This document shows positions 2,998 to 11,671 of a DNA stretch of 55,608 nucleotides, one piece after another. Origin of the DNA: Desulfatirhabdium butyrativorans DSM 18734 (GTDB lineage Bacteria > Desulfobacterota > Desulfobacteria > Desulfobacterales > Desulfatirhabdiaceae); NCBI RefSeq assembly GCF_000429925.1, contig NZ_AUCU01000034.1, positions 1 to 55,608 on the forward strand. The letters run 5' to 3'. Below the pieces are notes generated by a model. It was given only the letters and a program-made list of their open reading frames with translations. It did no database searches and was not told the origin of the DNA. The position numbers were made by a program, and so were the translations under genes. The first letter of the stretch is position 1, and every line of letters begins with the position of its first letter.

Positions 2998-3909
2998 TTA
3001 CAGATTGATCGAAAACAGCGCCATGGCATTGCGGTATAAGAGGCTGTCGCGGATGAGCGGAGGCAGTTGGCACTCTTCGATGGCCTTGAGCTCCCGATCC
3101 CATGCGTAGGGAATGTTCGGAAAATCGCTCCCGTAGAGAATGCGATCGTGGCGCAGATCCGTGAGGTTTGGAATGTCCGGCATCGAAAAATAGCCGGCCA
3201 GCATCATGGTCGTATCCAGCCACAGGTTGTCGAATCGCTCCAGCATCTCGCGATAGGCCGAAAACTCGTCGGCTCCCAGGTGCGGCACGCAGATTTGCAG
3301 GGTGGGAAAATCCTTCAGCACCTGCCGAAGTTTTCCGGCCTGGCAGAGGACATAGGGATCGCATGGATAGGCCGGGCTCTTGGGCTCCCTGCCGACATGC
3401 ATGACCAGCGGTTTCTCATGCTCCGCACACGCCTCGTAGACTTCGATCATGGTCGGGCTTTCCATATCGAAGCATTGCACGTGGGCGTGAAGCTTCACGC
3501 CTTTGAGCCCGATGCGAAAGGCATCATCCAGAATGTGCCGGGCACCCTTTTCTCCGGGAAAAACCGTGGCAAGCCCCGTCAATGCGGATGTTTGGGCGCA
3601 CAGATCGGCCATGTAGCCATTGAGCGATCTGGCGATGCCCGGCTTGTGGGCGTACTGCAGCCCGACGATGTGCAGGACCCCCTTGCTCAGCAGGAAATCG
3701 ATGATATCCCCGGAGTGTATTTTGTGCCGGATGGGCCAGCCGTACTGATCGAACCAGTTCCAGACAGAATGGAAGAGCTCATCCGGGAAAAAATGGACAT
3801 GGCTGTCGATGATGCAGGGAAGGCCGCTGGGGACCTGCTCCCCTTCGGGATCGTTCCATCCGGGAAGCGGGGCCGCAAGGGCAGGGGAGGGCGGTTGACG
3901 GGTCTTCAT
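2998..3909 (-). CDS. Amidohydrolase family (amidohydrolase_2, ACMSD-like) protein
   Basis: A 303-residue metal-dependent TIM-barrel hydrolase or decarboxylase. The barrel landmarks are in order: IDSHVHFFPD (HxH metal pair), KLHAHVQCFD, LVMHVGRE, CVPHLGAD and LYGSDFPNIPYAW carrying the catalytic aspartate. Family members hydrolyse or decarboxylate diverse small molecules, so the substrate is not predictable. Its start ATG overlaps the stop of the DUF3786 gene (ATGA-type overlap at 3906-3909), making it the third gene of a tight operon 5345-2998 and suggesting a shared task. Confidence 0.85.
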   Translation of the reverse strand: MKTRQPPSPALAAPLPGWNDPEGEQVPSGLPCIIDSHVHFFPDELFHSVWNWFDQYGWPIRHKIHSGDIIDFLLSKGVLHIVGLQYAHKPGIARSLNGYMADLCAQTSALTGLATVFPGEKGARHILDDAFRIGLKGVKLHAHVQCFDMESPTMIEVYEACAEHEKPLVMHVGREPKSPAYPCDPYVLCQAGKLRQVLKDFPTLQICVPHLGADEFSAYREMLERFDNLWLDTTMMLAGYFSMPDIPNLTDLRHDRILYGSDFPNIPYAWDRELKAIEECQLPPLIRDSLLYRNAMALFSINL

Positions 3910-4760
3910 CGATCACCTCGATCCGGGTGCTCGCACAGGCGTCTGGTGAGATGTTCGCTCAGGAACAGGATCGATTCGATATCGAGATGCTCGACGATGG
4001 TTTCATCGAAGAGCAGCTTGAGCTTGGCATCGAATCCTTCATCGGGTTCGGCATCCCAGAACAGCAGCAGCACCGGGATGCGGGGCAGGGGATGAAACAC
4101 CATGGCCAGATCGGAAGCGCCTTCCCCCGATGGCAGCTCCGTCTCTGTGGGCGCTCTGCCGCCAATGGCCTCACAGGCCCTCTTCAATTCATCAACCTTC
4201 CGCTGAAACCGCTCCTGCAGCACGTTTTCCACATGAGCCTTCATGGATTTCACCTTCGAGACCGTGTTGGGGATTTGATCGAAGGCTTTCCATTTTCCGA
4301 TGGGTGAACGCTTGCCGCCCTGCGCCAGGTGATTGTAGAGAAAAACCTGCTCCCAGCGATCCAGCGGCGCTCCGTCGGATTTGCGGATGCCGGTATCGGA
4401 AATCAGCACAGAGCCGGTGAAATAGGGTAGATCGAGGTATGCTTTGCCGCCATCCTGAACGAGCACGCCGCCGATGCGCTCCGGCAGGTCGGCGATGTTC
4501 ATGGAGGCAGCCCTTTGCTGCGCCCAAATCAGGGCGTCCTGGGCCGGGTCTTTCTTGGTCCATTTTCCGGCTTCATATTGCCGATCGAGCTCCGGCTGGT
4601 AACGCGCCAGCATTTCATCGGTCAGATGGGGGCATTGGGATAGCGGAAGCTTTTCGGAAACCACCATGGAGGCGAAGGCCATGCAGGTGGCAAAGCCGCA
4701 ATCCCGGCAATTGGTTCTCGGCAGCACTTTTCGGTACAGATCGATGACGGAAAGGGCCAT
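3906..4760 (-). CDS. DUF3786 protein with N-terminal 4Fe-4S (corrinoid-protein-type) domain
   Basis: A 284-residue protein. The N-terminus holds NCRDCGFATCMAFA and a fourth cysteine about 18 residues later (LSQCPHL), the four-cysteine 4Fe-4S pattern found in the large subunit of corrinoid iron-sulfur proteins and in related proteins of anaerobes. The rest matches my recollection of DUF3786: PYFTGSVLIS and LYNHLAQGG in the middle, then VFHPLPRIPVLLLFWD and FDETIVEHLDIESILFLSEHLTRRL. Members are widespread in sulfate reducers and methanogens; the function is unknown to me. The redox domain and the linked genes suggest corrinoid or one-carbon chemistry, which is inference. Confidence 0.8.
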   Translation of the reverse strand: MALSVIDLYRKVLPRTNCRDCGFATCMAFASMVVSEKLPLSQCPHLTDEMLARYQPELDRQYEAGKWTKKDPAQDALIWAQQRAASMNIADLPERIGGVLVQDGGKAYLDLPYFTGSVLISDTGIRKSDGAPLDRWEQVFLYNHLAQGGKRSPIGKWKAFDQIPNTVSKVKSMKAHVENVLQERFQRKVDELKRACEAIGGRAPTETELPSGEGASDLAMVFHPLPRIPVLLLFWDAEPDEGFDAKLKLLFDETIVEHLDIESILFLSEHLTRRLCEHPDRGDR

Positions 4761-4772
4761 GGCGACTCCGGA

Positions 4773-5345
4773 TCAGGTGCAAAGATGCAGCAGAAGCTGG
4801 CGGTGGCCCTGGATGGCAGCCTCGAGTTCGGACAGGTTTCGGCAGGATTGGCCCGGAGGATGAATCGATGGAAATTCTGGCCGGGAGGCTTTCAGGGCGG
4901 CCAGCAGCGCATCGGCCTCGACTTTCACGCCGTAGCGAAGCAGGATCGGGGCAAGCTCCTGGGCAATGAAATTAAACAGTTTCAGGGTGATCGTTCCCTG
5001 CTGATGGGCATCTGCGGCAACGGCGCAGGCGGCATCCGTGATCGCCTTCCGAAACGAGGCATAGGATCCGCCCTTTCGCAGGGTGGCTCCGGCCAGCCCC
5101 GGCATGGCTGCGGACAGGGCAATGGTCGATTTGTCGGCGACCATTGCCTTGTCGGGGTCGTCGATGGCCTTTCCGTTCAGGAAAAGCGTCTGGATGCGCT
5201 CATCGAGGTAGGCGTCGTCGATGCCGACCTGGCGGCACAGGATATCCCGGATGGTTGTTCCCGTCCGCACGTCCATTTCGACGCCGAGCTGCCAGAGCGG
5301 GGATAGAAAGGAAAGGTCTTTGGATGTAAGTTCCAGTTGAAGCAA
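4773..5345 (-). CDS. Conserved hypothetical protein with a possible beta-grasp (MoaD/ThiS-like) segment
   Basis: I do not recognise a named family. The best start is TTG 5345, because an AAAGGAGA ribosome-binding site (5352-5359) sits at ideal spacing; this gives 190 residues. An upstream ATG at 5408 would add 21 unlikely residues. Residues roughly 25-85 follow a MoaD/ThiS-like rhythm: TGTTIRDIL, then RIQTLFLNGKAID, then MVADKSTIALSAAMPGL. There is no exposed C-terminal Gly-Gly, so a sulfur-carrier role is doubtful. The C-terminal half is mostly helical. It is first in an operon with DUF3786 (12-base gap) and the amidohydrolase. Confidence 0.65.
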   Translation of the reverse strand: MLQLELTSKDLSFLSPLWQLGVEMDVRTGTTIRDILCRQVGIDDAYLDERIQTLFLNGKAIDDPDKAMVADKSTIALSAAMPGLAGATLRKGGSYASFRKAITDAACAVAADAHQQGTITLKLFNFIAQELAPILLRYGVKVEADALLAALKASRPEFPSIHPPGQSCRNLSELEAAIQGHRQLLLHLCT

Positions 5346-5434: not shown

Positions 5435-5535
5435 AGTCAGGAGTCGGTAAACAGAAGTCAGGAGTCAGGAGTCAGGAGTCAGAAGAAAAGCGGATGACTC
5501 CTATTTTGTAGTAGCTTGTTCCTGCGACTTGCATG
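5435..5535 (-). repeat. Dispersed repeat B, partial inverted copy with heptamer array
   Basis: On the minus strand this segment repeats the core of the intergenic repeat at 12993-13123 and 36664-36804: GTCGCAGGAACAAGCTA, then a stretch ending CATCCGCTTTTCTTC, then tandem units of TGACTCC. On the plus strand the array reads as four to five GTCAGGA units at 5455-5482. It occupies most of the 375-base gap between the operon starting at 5345 and the aldehyde oxidoreductase; no gene is visible there. Confidence 0.7.
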
Positions 5536-5720: not shown

Positions 5721-7457
5721 TTACCAGTTGTACAACTGATCCAGCTCTTCGTCACTGACGCCGAAGACGACGTTGTGCGGCGCGAGGGCCTCTTTCTTCA
5801 TGAATGCGGGCAGCCTGTCGTCGGCCTTGCTCAGACCGGCGGCGAGGTTGAATTCCCGTTCGGTTTTCAGCACGCTCTTGCCGAGGTTCACGACATCGTC
5901 CGCCGTCATTTTCTTGCCGACAAACGCCCCGATCATATCGACCAGAGCGCCGAACGTTTCGGGTTGATCGAGGATGGCAAAGGCGATGAACAGGCACATG
6001 CCGGTGGAGTCGATGGCTGTGGTGGCGATCTGCAAATTCCGGGAGAGCTCCACCTGGCCTTCGGGTTTGAGGGCATTGACGTTTCCGCCGACGCCCAGCA
6101 CGTTGGCCGTGACGGCATAGCCCGCCGTGTGATCCGCGCCCATGGTGGAAGTGGCGTAGGTTACGCCGATTCCCTGGACGGCCCTTGGGTCATAGGCCGG
6201 CATGGCCTGGCCCTTGACGACCGGAACGCGCTCCACGCCGAAAACCTTGCCGGTGACCGCCGCGCCGTTTCCGAGGATTCGGCCCAGATGCGTGCCTTTT
6301 CCGACTTCCTTCACCAGCTCGATGGCCGCCTGGGCATCCCCGAATTTGGCCAGACCCGCTTCCATGGCGACACCAATGGTTGCGCCCATTTCGATGGTAT
6401 CCAGACCGAAATCATCGTCCATCCGATCCAGCAGGGCGATGGCGTCCAGATCGTCGATGCCGCAGTTGCCGCCGTGCGCCCATACGGTCTCATATTCCGG
6501 CTGCTTCGTGACGAATTTCCCGTTCTTGTCCACATAAATGCCGGAGCAGCGGATGACGCATCCCTTGTGGCATCCGTGGGTCGGATCGCCGCCGCGTTCC
6601 TGTTCGGTTTGCGCCTGGGTTTCGCCGCTGATTTTGCCGGCGCCTGCAAATCGGCCGGTCGAGAAATTGTTCGTGGGATAACCGCCCGCCTCGTTGATGA
6701 CATTGGTCAGCACGTTGGTGCCGTAAGCCGGAAGGCCCTGACCGGTAACCGGATGTTTCTTGAGGCCCTGGACGAAATTCTTGTTGGCTTCCTTGAAGGC
6801 TTCCGGATCGGCAGCGCTTCGCATGGGGCATCCGGCATCGTCCAGAACGATGAGCTTGATGTTTTTCGATCCCATGACCGCGCCTACGCCGCCTCTTCCG
6901 GCATGGCGGGTTGGCCGCATTTCCATGTCGGTGATGGCGACGGATGCAGCGGACATTTTCATTTCGCCCGCCGGGCCAATGGAAATGCAGGCCACCTTGT
7001 CGCCATATTCGGCCTTGACCTTGTCGATCAGATCGTAATTGCCCAGCCCCTTGAGGCTGTTGTCCGGTGCGATCTTCACGCCGTCCTTGTTGATGAACAC
7101 CTTATAGAGCGTGTCATTCTGCGGTTTTCCTTCGAGCACGATGGCGGCGTATCCGAGCCTTCCCAGCACCTGGGCGGCCTGGCCGCCGGAATTGGCTTCC
7201 TTGATGCCGCCGGTCAGCGGGCTTTTGCAGCCGATGGAAATTCTTCCCGACATGGCTGCGGCCGATCCGCTCAACAGACCGGGGGCGATGACGAGTTTGT
7301 TGTCTTCGCCAAGCGGATGGCAAAGCGGCGGGACTTCCTTCGCCACGATGGTCGAGGTGAGTGCTCGTCCACCAAGACCGGCGTACGCGCCGATCGGCTC
7401 GATCCGAAACGATGGTCCGCCTGCCGCTCCTACGTCGATCCGAAGAATTTTGTCCAT
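5721..7457 (-). CDS. Aldehyde ferredoxin oxidoreductase (AOR) family protein
   Basis: A 578-residue tungsto/molybdopterin oxidoreductase, near normal AOR length. Landmarks are GGRALTS near residue 30, the GRGGVGAVMGSKNIK segment that contacts the pterin, and CHKGCVIRCS, part of the 4Fe-4S ligand set, whose last cysteine is expected in the C-terminal region (STGMCLF). AORs oxidise aldehydes to acids with ferredoxin, or reduce acids. The start has a strong AAAGGAGG site. It lies downstream of serC with a 108-base gap; no MoaD-like gene follows directly, although the gene at 4773-5345 may carry such a fold. Cytoplasmic. Confidence 0.92.
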   Translation of the reverse strand: MDKILRIDVGAAGGPSFRIEPIGAYAGLGGRALTSTIVAKEVPPLCHPLGEDNKLVIAPGLLSGSAAAMSGRISIGCKSPLTGGIKEANSGGQAAQVLGRLGYAAIVLEGKPQNDTLYKVFINKDGVKIAPDNSLKGLGNYDLIDKVKAEYGDKVACISIGPAGEMKMSAASVAITDMEMRPTRHAGRGGVGAVMGSKNIKLIVLDDAGCPMRSAADPEAFKEANKNFVQGLKKHPVTGQGLPAYGTNVLTNVINEAGGYPTNNFSTGRFAGAGKISGETQAQTEQERGGDPTHGCHKGCVIRCSGIYVDKNGKFVTKQPEYETVWAHGGNCGIDDLDAIALLDRMDDDFGLDTIEMGATIGVAMEAGLAKFGDAQAAIELVKEVGKGTHLGRILGNGAAVTGKVFGVERVPVVKGQAMPAYDPRAVQGIGVTYATSTMGADHTAGYAVTANVLGVGGNVNALKPEGQVELSRNLQIATTAIDSTGMCLFIAFAILDQPETFGALVDMIGAFVGKKMTADDVVNLGKSVLKTEREFNLAAGLSKADDRLPAFMKKEALAPHNVVFGVSDEELDQLYNW

Positions 7458-7565: not shown

Positions 7566-8654
7566 CTATCCGTTTTTCTGCTCGAATGCCTTCATGAAAT
7601 CGACGAGGGCTTCGACGGATTTCAATCCGGTCGCATTGTAAATGGAAGCCCGGCAACCGCCGACGCTTCGGTGTCCTTTTAAGCCACCGAAATCATTTTT
7701 GGTGGCTTCTTCGATGAATTTCTTTTCGAGATCCTCGGAAGGCAGCCGGAAGGTGACGTTCATCAGGGATCTGGAGTCGGCTTGGGCCGTGCCCCGATAG
7801 AACTGGCTCGCGTCGATGGTCCGGTAGAGCAGCGAGGCTTTTTGCTGATTGATGGCCGCCATCTTGTCCAGCCCGCCGATGGTTTCCTCCAGCCATTTCA
7901 ACACGAGCTGGATGGTGTACACGCCGAAGCACGGCGGGGTGTTGTACATGGAATTCTTGGATGCATGGGTCGTGTATTTAAGCATGGTCGGCAGATTGTC
8001 CGGGGTTTTCTGGAGCATGTCCTCGCGGATGATGACCAGGCAAACGCCTGCAGGCCCGATATTTTTCTGGGCGCCTGCGTAAATGAGACCGAATTTCGAT
8101 GCATCGAAGGGCCTGCTCAGGAAATCCGAGGACATGTCCGCGACAAGCGGCACGCCGCCGGTTTCCGGATAGGCGGCCCACTGGGTACCCTTGATCGTGT
8201 TGTTGCTGGTGATGTGCACATAAACGGCCTTGGGGTCGAAGGCGATGTTTTTGGGGATATAGGAAAAATCCTTGTCCTTGCTGGAGGCGGCCACGCGGTG
8301 CTGCTTGCCGAGGATTCTGGCCTCGTCGATGGCCTTGGTTGCCCAGGTGCCGGTGTTGACGTAGTCTGCGGATTCCCCGTCTTTCAGAAGGTTCATCGGG
8401 ATCATGGCAAACTGCAGGCTCGCTCCGCCCTGAAGGAACAGCACATGATACCGGTCGTCGAGTTTCAGCAGTCTTTTGGTGCGGGCCACCGCATCGTTGA
8501 TGACGTCATCGAACCATTTGGATCGATGGCTGACCTCGGTGATGGACATGCCGGACTGGTTGAAATTCAGGAAGGATGCCTGGATTTCTTCGAGAACGGG
8601 CAGGGGAAGGGCCGCGGGGCCTGCGTTGAAATTGTGGATACGATGTTGGGGCAT
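7566..8654 (-). CDS. serC: Phosphoserine aminotransferase
   Basis: A 362-residue class V PLP aminotransferase making O-phosphoserine from 3-phosphohydroxypyruvate (also used in pyridoxal phosphate synthesis). It starts with the typical HNFNAGPAALP and holds FLQGGASLQFAMIPMNLL, the lysine motif YAGAQKNIGPAG and the C-terminal GHRSVGGCRASIYN. The start has a GGAGG site. It is 36 bases downstream of larC and may be the last gene of the core-metE-larEBC transcript. A GC-rich 8-bp inverted repeat in the gap to the next gene (around 7520-7555) lacks a T-run, so I do not call a terminator. Confidence 0.96.
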   Translation of the reverse strand: MPQHRIHNFNAGPAALPLPVLEEIQASFLNFNQSGMSITEVSHRSKWFDDVINDAVARTKRLLKLDDRYHVLFLQGGASLQFAMIPMNLLKDGESADYVNTGTWATKAIDEARILGKQHRVAASSKDKDFSYIPKNIAFDPKAVYVHITSNNTIKGTQWAAYPETGGVPLVADMSSDFLSRPFDASKFGLIYAGAQKNIGPAGVCLVIIREDMLQKTPDNLPTMLKYTTHASKNSMYNTPPCFGVYTIQLVLKWLEETIGGLDKMAAINQQKASLLYRTIDASQFYRGTAQADSRSLMNVTFRLPSEDLEKKFIEEATKNDFGGLKGHRSVGGCRASIYNATGLKSVEALVDFMKAFEQKNG

Positions 8655-8690: not shown

Positions 8691-9962
8691 TTATAGATGC
8701 TTCGCATCGGTAATGCGATAACGATCTGGTGAATCGTGATTCTTTCTTTCTACATCATGGAATTCAGAAGTCAAATGGAAAGTGGCGCGGGCTTCATTCA
8801 TGATGCGGTGAACCGGAATGCCTGCATGTTGGGCGGCAAGCCTGCAATCCTCGTATTCGGGCGAAATCTGGACCGGTTTCCCGTCCATCCAGCCGATTTT
8901 CATGCGGATGGGTCCATACGGCGTTTCTGTTGAACGAATTTCCCGGGAGAGTTTAATCCGGCTCTCCAGCTGCCAGCGAATTCCAAATGTCGTCGTCTCC
9001 TGCAGCAGGGACCTGGCGATTCGGCCCAGATCGGATGGTTCGACGAGCACCTGCATCCAGAATCCCGTCCTGCCCTTCTTCATCTGGACAGGAGCGATGA
9101 TGGCATCGATTGCTCCGGCAGCCAGGAGGTTTTCCATGACCGAGACGAGGCACTCCGGTGTCATGTCGTCGATCTGGGTTTCGATGACGCCCACCCGATC
9201 GGTTTCGAGTCCGGAAATGTCCGGCGGCGCCGTATCGGCATGCGGAATGTTGTCTCCAATGAAAACCCTCAGGAGATTCGGCCTTCCGATATCGTGCGTT
9301 CCGGCCCCGTACCCGATGCAATCGATGCGCATGGGGGGCATGGGGCCGAAATCCTCGGCAAGGGTCGTGAGCAGCGCCGCCCCTGTCGGGGTCAGCAACT
9401 CGAAGGGGATGTCGCTGCCATAAGCGGGAAAACCCCGGATCAGCTCGGCCGTTGCCGGCGCCGGAACCGGGAGCCGGCCGTGGGCGCAATGCACCGTTCC
9501 GCTTCCGGTATTCAGGGCCGAGCAATGGATCCGATCCGGACGGAGCATGGCGATAGCGGCGACGGTACCGACGATATCGACGATGGTATCCAAGGCGCCG
9601 ATTTCATGGAAATGCACCTCTTCGATCGGAATGCCATGGACTTTGGATTCGGCCGCTGCCAGTCTGCGAAAAACCGCGACACTCCTTTGGGTGATCCAGG
9701 GATCGAGAGCGGCTTCTTCGATGATGGCAAGAATTTGGCTGAGGTGGCGGTGTGGCTGCAGGTCTTCTGGGATGGAGACGATTGCCCGTGTTGCGCCAAG
9801 GCCATGGGATCGGACTTGCCGCGCCTGGAGCGCTACGCCGGGAAGACGGAGCCGATCGATGGTCCGGTTCAGCACATCGAGGCTAGCGCCGGCATCGATC
9901 AAGGCGCCGAGCAACATGTCGCCCGATGCGCCGCAGGAGCCGTCAACATGCAGAATTTTCAT
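8691..9962 (-). CDS. larC: Nickel-pincer nucleotide cofactor biosynthesis protein LarC
   Basis: A 423-residue LarC (DUF111), which inserts nickel into the pyridinium-dithiocarboxylate mononucleotide. It starts at ATG 9962 with MKILHVDGSCGASGDMLLGAL, the family N-terminus; the open frame continues upstream only as a shadow of larB. Other landmarks are EVHFHEIGALDTIVD, LLTPTGAALLTTLA and ETQIDDMTPECL. It is full length in one frame, unlike the frameshift-expressed larC1/larC2 of Lactobacillus. The start overlaps the larB stop (ATGA). Confidence 0.94.
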   Translation of the reverse strand: MKILHVDGSCGASGDMLLGALIDAGASLDVLNRTIDRLRLPGVALQARQVRSHGLGATRAIVSIPEDLQPHRHLSQILAIIEEAALDPWITQRSVAVFRRLAAAESKVHGIPIEEVHFHEIGALDTIVDIVGTVAAIAMLRPDRIHCSALNTGSGTVHCAHGRLPVPAPATAELIRGFPAYGSDIPFELLTPTGAALLTTLAEDFGPMPPMRIDCIGYGAGTHDIGRPNLLRVFIGDNIPHADTAPPDISGLETDRVGVIETQIDDMTPECLVSVMENLLAAGAIDAIIAPVQMKKGRTGFWMQVLVEPSDLGRIARSLLQETTTFGIRWQLESRIKLSREIRSTETPYGPIRMKIGWMDGKPVQISPEYEDCRLAAQHAGIPVHRIMNEARATFHLTSEFHDVERKNHDSPDRYRITDAKHL

Positions 9963-10795
9963 GAACCCTTTCTTTCTGAATCCGGTGAAATGGGCGATTC
10001 GGCCGGGCGATGCGTGGTGTCTGCCAGATCGGCCCGGTTGGGGTTGCCTGCAGCCAGGTGGTTGATGAGGCTTGCCTGGCATGCCGCGCCGAAACCGTTG
10101 TCGATGTTGACGACCGAGACCCCGACGGCGCAGGAATTCAGCATGGCGAGCAGTGCCGCAAGGCCCCCGAAACTGGCGCCATAACCCACACTGGTCGGCA
10201 CGGCGATGACGGGGCATGCGGCCATCCCGCCGACGACGCTGGCCAGAGCACCCTCCATTCCGGCCACAACCACGATGGCATGGGCATCGATCCATTCCGT
10301 CCGGGCCAGCAGCAGTCTGTGGATGCCTGCGACGCCGGCGTCGTAGAGCCGTGTTACCCGGTTGCCGAGGGTTTCGGCGGTGATGGCCGCCTCTTCGGCA
10401 ACCGGCATGTCGGATGTCCCGGCCGATATGACGGCGATGTGGCCGATGGCATCTGCGGGTTGGGGCCGGATGACGGCGATGCGGGCGATCGCGTGATATT
10501 GCACGGGGATGCCGAGGGCTTCGATTTTCCGGACGCTCGTTTCGCCGATCCGGGTGGCCAGAATGTTGGAAGAGCGCGAGACCATGGACTGGACAATGCC
10601 GGTAATCTGCTCGTCCGTTTTTCCGGCGCAGTAAATGACCTCGCCGATGCCGTTTCGAAGCGAGCGGTGGTGATCGATCCGCGCATAGCCGAGGTTTTCG
10701 AATGGCAGCAGGCGAAGCCGCTCGATGGCTTCATCGATGCCGGTGGTGTTGTTCCGAACGGATTGCAGCAGTTCGTGGAGTTCTTTCGGGTCCAT
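9959..10795 (-). CDS. larB: Nickel-pincer cofactor biosynthesis protein LarB
   Basis: A 278-residue PurE-like carboxylase that carboxylates and hydrolyses nicotinic acid adenine dinucleotide as the first step of the Ni-pincer cofactor pathway. It shows the LarB N-terminal helical part, then the PurE-like domain with ISAGTSDMPVAEEAA, a DAGVAGIHRLL segment, VVVAGMEGALASVVGGM and PTSVGYGASFGGLAALL. It lies 18 bases after larE and overlaps larC by four bases. Confidence 0.94.
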   Translation of the reverse strand: MDPKELHELLQSVRNNTTGIDEAIERLRLLPFENLGYARIDHHRSLRNGIGEVIYCAGKTDEQITGIVQSMVSRSSNILATRIGETSVRKIEALGIPVQYHAIARIAVIRPQPADAIGHIAVISAGTSDMPVAEEAAITAETLGNRVTRLYDAGVAGIHRLLLARTEWIDAHAIVVVAGMEGALASVVGGMAACPVIAVPTSVGYGASFGGLAALLAMLNSCAVGVSVVNIDNGFGAACQASLINHLAAGNPNRADLADTTHRPAESPISPDSERKGS

Positions 10796-10813: not shown

Positions 10814-11671
10814 TCAGGGGTTAGCACCAATGGATTCGGGAGCGGAGGGACTCAGCGGCATCCGGGGCCCGCCGCTTCGATAACCTTCCAGATCCAGCAG
10901 GACGGCATCGAAACCGGCATTCCGGAAAAAATCGGTTATGCCAATGACCGATTCCGGCTTCAACCGGCGCATGTCTTCCACAGGCATCTCGATTCGGGCG
11001 ATTGAGCCGTCATGGCGAACGCGCAACACCCGGATGCCGGTGCATTTCCGGAAATGATTTTCGCAGATTTCGATCCGGTGCAGCTTGTCTCGGGTGATGC
11101 GCTGGCCGCAGGGGATTCGGGTGGCCAGGCAGGCATTGGCAGGCCGGTCCCACACCCGAAGATCCGCCTGTTTGGCCAGGCGGCGGATGTCCGCCTTGGA
11201 GAGGCCGGCTTCCAGGAGGGGATGACGGACGCCGAAGGCATCGGACACGGCCCGGCCCGGCCGCTCCTCGGCCACGTCATCGGCGTTTTCGCCGTCCAGA
11301 AAAATGGCGCTCTCGGGCAGGGCATCCAGAAAAGCCCGCAGCCGGATGCGCTTGCATATCGCGCAGCGATCTTTCGGATTGGCGCAGAAATCGGCTGATG
11401 CGCATTCGTCCGTTTCGGCGGCGACATGCCGGATCCCCAATTCTCTGGCCAGCGAGCCGGCATCCTGCCGCTCGGCGGCAGTCATCAGCGGCGACATGGC
11501 CGTTACGGCAGCAACCGCCTCTTGTCCGCAGGCAATCCGGCAGGCATGCAGGAGCAGGGTGCTGTCCACGCCGCCGGAAAAGAGAACAGCCGGCCGATCG
11601 ATTGCCTTCAGGCAATTCAGGAGGCGCTGCCATTTGGACTCGATGGTTTCTGCTGCAGGGTTCATCGGCAT
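10814..11671 (-). CDS. larE: ATP-dependent sulfur transferase LarE
   Basis: A 285-residue PP-loop enzyme that supplies sulfur to the nickel-pincer cofactor. The nucleotide loop SGGVDST is at residues 32-38. The CxxC of RCAICK (103, 106) and Cys181 in PANACLATRIPC are visible; Cys181 aligns with the sacrificial cysteine of the Lactobacillus enzyme. An extra Cys188 and other nearby cysteines leave open that this is the iron-sulfur-cluster version that avoids self-sacrifice; sequence alone does not settle this. It starts seven bases after core-metE and is followed by larB. No larA racemase is in the window. Confidence 0.92.
   Translation of the reverse strand: MPMNPAAETIESKWQRLLNCLKAIDRPAVLFSGGVDSTLLLHACRIACGQEAVAAVTAMSPLMTAAERQDAGSLARELGIRHVAAETDECASADFCANPKDRCAICKRIRLRAFLDALPESAIFLDGENADDVAEERPGRAVSDAFGVRHPLLEAGLSKADIRRLAKQADLRVWDRPANACLATRIPCGQRITRDKLHRIEICENHFRKCTGIRVLRVRHDGSIARIEMPVEDMRRLKPESVIGITDFFRNAGFDAVLLDLEGYRSGGPRMPLSPSAPESIGANP

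Follow-up and report, generated by a model that had tools for sequence, protein, structure and literature searches.

With which of its neighbours does a gene without family assignment work, when an aldehyde oxidoreductase (AOR) gene lies upstream of it and two closely spaced genes follow, and what might its product do? The question is raised by a contig of 55,608 nucleotides (NZ_AUCU01000034.1, the whole of which we call the window) from the 4.48 Mb genome of Desulfatirhabdium butyrativorans DSM 18734. An earlier note on this DNA had taken the gene at 5345-4773, here gene 1, to be the first of three in an undescribed pathway of corrinoid, pterin or one-carbon chemistry. We propose instead that gene 1 encodes an accessory protein of one WorL/AOR group of tungsten AORs, found mostly in Desulfobacterota, and that it would aid the making or insertion of their cofactor; we put the probability of this reading at about 0.5. 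Gene 1 encodes 190 amino acids (aa), starts with TTG and has AAAGGAG in front of the start. It and the AOR gene are placed as follows.

4773 to 5345, minus strand: gene 1, predicted extended MoaD-like protein and AOR companion (family searches, fold model and hhalign)
5049 to 5114, minus strand: gene 1 residues 78-99, with S78, A80, P82, G83, G86, R90 and R99 invariant in 74/74 rows; spans and passes the site of the free GlyGly of MoaD
5721 to 7457, minus strand: aldehyde oxidoreductase (WorL, AOR family), 578 aa, with AFOR_N and AFOR_C; 375 bases from gene 1

Distribution of gene 1 and linkage to the AOR

Searches against Pfam and NCBIfam returned no family match for gene 1 at E up to 1. Despite this, gene 1 is on comparative grounds a real gene, because it has matches in 49 further genomes and because 16 columns of its alignment of 74 sequences are invariant. 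It was found in 50 of 94 related genomes, the other 49 matching at 28-54% local identity, and in 59 of a sample of 395 genomes of the phylum. A scan of a contig collection with the single protein found no relative; a profile search of the same collection, with a profile built from a 5-row alignment (a 36-row alignment being too diverse as a query), yielded 267 stretches with relatives of gene 1. The best 80 of these, the named loci, come mostly from Desulfobacterales and other Deltaproteobacteria, and also include four metagenome-assembled genomes of Spirochaetes, two Syntrophaceae and Geobacter argillaceus. Nearly all genomes that have gene 1 hold a single copy.

Neighbourhoods were examined in several samples. 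Of the 49 other genomes with gene 1, 40 were sampled, which gave, with the window, 41 relatives' loci; these have genomes in common with the 80 named loci. A further 20 loci were added from the 59 phylum matches, chosen mostly because gene 1 does not stand beside an AOR in them, and, as L257 duplicates L157, the total of 131 came down to 130 non-redundant loci. Neighbouring genes were called as open reading frames (ORFs) scored by amino-acid composition, a crude procedure that placed some starts too far in and overlooked gene 1 in places, and the counts over 130 loci were therefore made by profile and tblastn. Clusters of neighbours were counted over 111 non-redundant loci, several clusters having no identification.

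An AOR gene lies on the same strand as gene 1 at 36 of the 41 relatives' loci (33 upstream, 3 downstream), and at 70 of the 80 named loci it lies upstream on the same strand within ~1.6 kb; commonly, gene 1 follows ~100 bases downstream of the AOR. The distance is at most 2 kb at 98 of the 130 loci, and at 96 of 111 before the addition of 19 that were chosen mostly for lacking an AOR. Across the 94 related genomes, for which presence lists were compiled by hand, gene 1 and an AOR of at least 69% identity are found together in 46, gene 1 only in 4, the AOR only in 5 and neither in 39, counts that are uncorrected for relatedness. Among the phylum genomes an AOR was detected at E<=1e-150 in 57 of the 59 that have gene 1, and among the 49 genomes with a listed AOR match of at least 70% identity 44 have gene 1, compared with 13 of the 103 whose AORs are all more distant. 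Co-occurrence with AOR genes, which the earlier note had thought worth examining, is thus found for one AOR group. As far as sequence comparison goes, gene 1 is a widespread and unnamed MoaD relative that travels with one kind of AOR.

Among the four related genomes with gene 1 only, one has the end of an AOR at a contig edge (G061), one has gene 1 cut by the contig start (G085) and one holds distant AORs together with two short fragments at 55-56% (G090); the fourth, G002, is weighed in the Discussion. In G045, one of the five with the AOR only, the AOR stops ~250 bases from the contig end. Where gene 1 is unlinked from the AOR, a close AOR (69-80%) lies elsewhere in G005, G031 and G066, and fragments are found in G006. 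The idea that gene 1 has a C-terminal AOR fragment as its partner at loci lacking a nearby AOR was considered and discarded, as 18 such loci gave only L175, at a contig edge, and L176, which is decayed. At L176 (G002, a genome of the same family) an AOR remnant at 4372-4515 lies between LarC and a MoaD-like ORF with gene 1.

Fold and conserved loop

The structure predicted by AlphaFold for full-length gene 1 has a predicted local distance difference test score (pLDDT) of 85.8 and a predicted template-modelling score (pTM) of 0.83. When the gene 1 family was compared with an alignment of AOR-linked MoaD proteins, hhalign gave 91.4% over gene 1 residues 22-77. In the VIA structure comparison the best row was ThiS (3cwi; Z 3.7, root-mean-square deviation 2.4, 60 residues), followed by an RNF subunit at Z 3.2 and by MoaD at Z 3.2, 3.1 and 2.9; SAMP1 and TtuB ranked further down, and S4-type and other ribosomal chains were interspersed. 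A PDB sequence search with gene 1 produced two weak matches only, both to unrelated proteins. Taken together, these results support a MoaD/ThiS-like fold for the N-terminal half of gene 1, weakly so if the structure search is considered alone: this half would have the beta-grasp (ubiquitin-like) form of the MoaD and ThiS carriers, and it aligns with MoaD and ThiS (PDB 1fm0 and 3cwi), weakly, over 60-64 residues. The earlier note had suspected such a fold and pointed to structure prediction of 4773-5345, and its suspicion finds support here, with weak structural matches. The C-terminal half (VTLKLFN...) was suspected to be a second MoaD domain, which the results do not bear out, with 4.7% in hhalign and a worse fold on its own (pLDDT 71.5); neither hhalign against MoaD nor separate folding matched it to a known domain.

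MoaD and ThiS carriers end in Gly-Gly, which is turned into a thiocarboxylate and is needed for the carrier role. Their chain ends align at P82-G83-L84 of gene 1, whose chain continues beyond and comprises ~100 extra residues, and GlyGly stands at the C-terminal end of 0/74 gene 1 sequences, so that the tail of a sulfur carrier is missing. These 74 rows (alignment A3) comprise the window together with 73 named loci, the seven excluded from the 80 being L146, L127, L145 and L155 (truncated or containing N), two sequences dropped as near-identical and the overlong L131; A4 is A3 minus L090, L095, L096 and L109, and A5 contains 21 of 30 MoaD sequences. The residues invariant in all rows of A3 include T53, D62, K122, N125 and G139 in addition to those of the loop at and past the MoaD end, which reads S-x-A-x-PG-x-x-G-x-x-x-R...R. 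Cysteines number 0 to 6 per row and none is invariant.

The associated AOR

By its domains, the protein at 7457-5721 is still a member of the AOR family, in agreement with the earlier note, which had placed an AOR upstream; its closest solved relatives are the AORs 9mqx, 1aor, 9g7j and 8c0z. In the AOR of Pyrococcus furiosus the 4Fe-4S cluster is held by C-x2-C-x3-C and a distal Cys, a pattern also read in the 1aor alignment. The window AOR lacks this spacing. Among 91 of the 100 members of its cluster, those of 560-650 aa, 87 have C-x3-C-x3-C instead (80 with HGC before the motif), the remaining four being paralogues with C-x2-C-x3-C, and the distal Cys was found by pattern in 76. Ligation of the cluster in this AOR group may differ from that in P. 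furiosus AOR. The same 91 members share the motifs PEYE (87), PAYDPR (87), GADHT (85) and YGTN (54). We assume from the family that the metal is tungsten. The residues of the tungstopterin site that are named, as Thr243, Glu313, Tyr427 and His448 in P. furiosus numbering, in a recent survey (PMC13328260) appear to be kept in the window AOR when matched by eye on the 1aor alignment, and, going by the motifs just listed, in 54 to 87 of the 91 members.

Other recurrent neighbours

After gene 1 and the AOR, the commonest cluster over the 111 loci is a MoaD-like protein of ~79 aa (30 loci), of which 28/30 sequences end in GG. SerC, often encoded upstream of this AOR, was counted at 29 loci, thiolase at 23, HisD at 21, 3-hydroxyacyl-CoA dehydrogenase at 20 and ThiF at 19. 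Over the 130 loci, a MoaD-like gene lies within 2 kb of gene 1 at 28; a separate true MoaD accordingly adjoins gene 1 at about a fifth of loci, often with ThiF/MoeB. A few loci carry further cofactor genes. L270 has gene 1, MoeA, MoeA/PBP, the AOR, MoaD and ThiF on one strand; L271 has the AOR, MoaD, two MoeA genes and gene 1; and at L273 the genes behind gene 1 encode a TPR protein and one resembling TupA (its best family, at 258 bits with a cut-off of 400), the AOR and MoaD being encoded on the opposite strand. We would place gene 1 in a tungsten-cofactor context from its MoaD and ThiF neighbours and from these few MoeA and TupA loci.

In the window itself, the genes upstream of gene 1 on the same strand are, beyond the AOR, those of SerC, LarC, LarB and LarE, so that a complete larE-larB-larC set precedes serC-AOR-gene 1.

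7566 to 8654, minus strand: phosphoserine transaminase SerC, upstream of the AOR
8691 to 9962, minus strand: LarC, nickel-pincer cofactor biosynthesis (TIGR00299 and NF052512 above cut-off)
9959 to 10795, minus strand: LarB, nickel-pincer cofactor biosynthesis (NF033503 above cut-off)
10814 to 11671, minus strand: LarE, sulfur transferase of nickel-pincer biosynthesis (TIGR00268 above cut-off)

Genes for LarB, LarC or LarE were found near gene 1 at 8 of the 130 loci, the window and seven others; by a rough estimate that takes one lar cluster per ~4 Mb, chance would give ~0.5% of loci. Neighbourhood is what links gene 1 to this pathway, gene 1 itself being no Lar protein. The LarE of the window has a CxxC and a third Cys, as read by eye, and LarA was detected in this genome below threshold only (20.3 vs 23.3 bits). 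In Desulfonema magnum (L113, 4767-10594) the order is LarE-LarB-MoaD-ThiF-(small ORF)-LarC-gene 1, and the 20 kb examined contain no AOR; at L176 the AOR remnant is still surrounded by Lar genes, a MoaD-like ORF and gene 1. A literature search of open-licence papers for LarC together with AOR turned up none.

Two further features of this part of the window may be recorded. A seven-base tandem repeat of ~7 copies lies at 5435-5482 between the AOR and gene 1, and a search with the gathering thresholds of Rfam identified three tRNAs in the window, with nothing near the AOR or gene 1.

The genes downstream of gene 1

4760 to 3906, minus strand: gene 2, FeS-DUF3786 protein, 284 aa (PF12654 and PF04060); 12-base gap after gene 1
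3909 to 2998, minus strand: gene 3, Amidohydro_2 hydrolase, 303 aa (PF04909); 4-base overlap with gene 2

The coordinates and spacings on which the earlier note had built its operon are correct, and its three genes are all there. Gene 2 combines DUF3786 (1.7e-40) with the FeS domain (1.7e-13) behind the reported 4Fe-4S motif, and its first 52 residues are nearest to the gamma subunit of acetyl-CoA decarbonylase/synthase (5.1e-15, far under the model cut-off); gene 3 matches Amidohydro_2 at 6e-24, as befits the proposed hydrolase; and the methyltransferase said to lie downstream is a PF02574 S-methyltransferase at 2256-1333, separated from gene 3 by 741 bases that contain a short ORF with a weak likeness to glyoxalase. 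Further along, at 425-1237, the window encodes a LigB / DOPA-dioxygenase-like protein.

The trio as a unit did not hold up. DUF3786, the amidohydrolase and the S-methyltransferase were each found near gene 1 at 1/130 loci, the window only (tblastn, E up to 1e-6). Close DUF3786 relatives (at least 52%) occur in 27 of 93 other genomes and close amidohydrolase relatives in 23, and in the six genomes with both (G015, G017, G042, G061, G075 and G079) they lie on different contigs or more than 1 Mb apart. The recurrent DUF3786 neighbourhood for which the earlier note had hoped was not seen either: within ~1.5 kb, and with crude gene calls, no neighbour exceeded 3/29 DUF3786 or 3/15 amidohydrolase loci. 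Because neither of the two was met near gene 1 at any locus but the window, the DUF3786 protein and the amidohydrolase are, on this genomic evidence, local passengers that look like chance neighbours.

A DUF3786 paralogue in the same genome (contig C21; L076 1237-8725) follows genes for carbon monoxide dehydrogenase (CODH), acetyl-CoA synthase (ACS), CdhD/FeS and a pterin-binding protein. Since it ends a CODH/ACS run, the DUF3786 family as a whole touches corrinoid and one-carbon metabolism.

Discussion

The N-terminal half of gene 1 is predicted to have the fold of a small sulfur carrier, and the protein lacks the tail that would make it one. We suggest that the sulfur-carrier chemistry is done by a separate true MoaD with ThiF, and that in gene 1 the MoaD fold has been turned into a binding or docking module. 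The loop S-x-A-x-P-G-x-x-G-x-x-x-R...R, with K122 and N125, might hold a (tungsto)pyranopterin or its phosphate; alternatively, the same loop could dock on MoaE, MoeA or the apo-AOR. In either case gene 1 would help to make or insert the tungsten cofactor and thereby to mature the AOR.

Several observations weigh against this proposal. The low VIA scores could stem from a common arrangement of structural elements, Foldseek against the PDB gave no E lower than 0.41, and what suggests binding of a cofactor by the loop is its conservation only. Four genomes with a close AOR (G025, G036, G050 and G078) had no gene 1 in a profile search run without a positive control, and gene 1 would therefore not always be needed; it is likewise missing in 5 of the 49 phylum genomes with an AOR of at least 70%. 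Conversely, gene 1 persists in G002, where the AOR has decayed to a remnant, and is present in G360, where no AOR was found at 1e-150, while at L113, L137 and L255 it stands beside LarC with no AOR in the stretch examined (the L255 genome has a 75% AOR on another contig). Finally, relatives of MoeA occur at 3/130 gene-1 loci and a relative of TupA at 1/130, and in view of these small numbers we reduced the probability given to a maturation role from 0.55 to 0.5.

The strongest competitor sees in gene 1 a small AOR subunit, structural or for docking, and not a maturation factor. Tight linkage, with gene 1 so commonly ~100 bases behind the AOR, and a single copy per genome nearly throughout are what one would expect of a subunit; with no invariant Cys, however, gene 1 does not look like a protein that carries its own FeS cluster, and it is sometimes unlinked from the AOR, occurs in genomes without one, and at L270 precedes two MoeA genes away from the AOR. 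We regard the subunit as unlikely, although it is the alternative that we take most seriously. Much less probable is the reading as a latent sulfur carrier, in which gene 1 would be cleaved after an internal GG at residues 92-93 to free a GlyGly tail: G92 is kept in 71/74 and G93 in 72/74 rows, but Ser replaces one Gly in some of them and DG, KG, EG or QG appear in the wider set, the GlyGly of MoaD aligns near P82-G83, ten residues earlier, no peptidase is among the recurrent neighbours that were identified (several clusters being without identification), and a true MoaD often adjoins gene 1. The three-gene pathway of corrinoid or one-carbon chemistry we consider the most improbable of all; operon-like spacing in the window and the paralogue behind CODH/ACS genes speak for it, and against it stand the lack of either partner near gene 1 at any other of the 130 loci and their separation in the six genomes that hold both. 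Of the chemistry that the earlier note had in mind, the pterin side stands, given a tungstopterin-type AOR as partner and MoaD, ThiF, MoeA or TupA-like genes at some loci.

A further alternative starts from the lar genes and would have gene 1, with MoaD and ThiF, serve sulfur insertion by LarE, linkage to the AOR being secondary. Both the eight lar loci and the arrangements at L113, where no AOR was seen, and L176, where it has decayed, fit this idea, as does the resemblance of the window LarE, with its CxxC and third Cys, to LarE of Thermotoga maritima. In the study of that protein, this FeS-type LarE is likened to TtuA, which can accept sulfur from the TtuB thiocarboxylate; a cysteine desulfurase can also serve LarE directly (PMC9283937). 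Weighed against an AOR within 2 kb at 98/130 loci, however, eight loci with Lar genes are few, and gene 1 has no carrier tail, so we hold a primary role in nickel-pincer synthesis to be improbable. As a lead by analogy, a MoaD-ThiF pair amid lar genes would fit the TtuB idea, with the MoaD thiocarboxylate as the sulfur donor of LarE. One may go further and imagine a dedicated loader of the tungsten AOR cofactor, derived from MoaD by turning its tail into an internal ligand-binding loop, within a MoaD-ThiF-gene 1 module that is shared with nickel-pincer synthesis and whose thiocarboxylate feeds FeS-type LarE as TtuB feeds TtuA; this composite is speculative, and we would bet against it.

Our preferred reading of gene 1 as an accessory to AOR cofactor acquisition has precedents in other proteins encoded near such enzymes. 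MoaD genes adjacent to AOR have been predicted to act in making the tungsten cofactor (Iyer et al. 2006, PMC1779556), and the same has been predicted for the MoaD-like aorD and aorE beside the AOR of Aromatoleum (Arndt et al. 2019, PMC6365974); going by the descriptions in these papers, gene 1 is set apart from both as an extended relative without the carrier tail. According to Putumbaka et al. (2026, PMC13328260), WorX is a ThiS-like protein beside Class I tungsten-containing oxidoreductases (WORs) with a predicted role in pterin biosynthesis, its exact function being stated as unknown, and in Cetobacterium somerae thiF adjoins worX next to the WorL gene. Gene 1 shares with WorX the relation to MoaD and ThiS and the adjacent WorL gene; it differs in its length of ~200 aa, in lacking a GlyGly end and in having no ThiS family match (1/36 members at E 0.024). 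In our reading, matched by description, WorX corresponds best to the short, GG-ending MoaD neighbour, and the MoaD and ThiF neighbours found here resemble the worX-thiF pair as well as the AOR-linked MoaD of Iyer et al. In the portions available, open-licence papers on DUF3786, AOR families, AOR-linked MoaD, WorX, LarE with TtuB and AOR maturation chaperones yielded no description of gene 1. In the survey of Putumbaka et al., gene context was assigned by InterPro domains, and such a survey may pass over gene 1, since it matches neither Pfam nor NCBIfam.

The same survey counts only five of 92 WOR clades as having a member with a defined physiological role (PMC13328260). The lar-MoaD-ThiF arrangement points to a candidate sulfur donor for FeS-type LarE, and gene 1, as the near-constant companion of a strongly conserved AOR, may offer direct genetic access to the way in which AOR-type tungstoenzymes acquire their cofactor.

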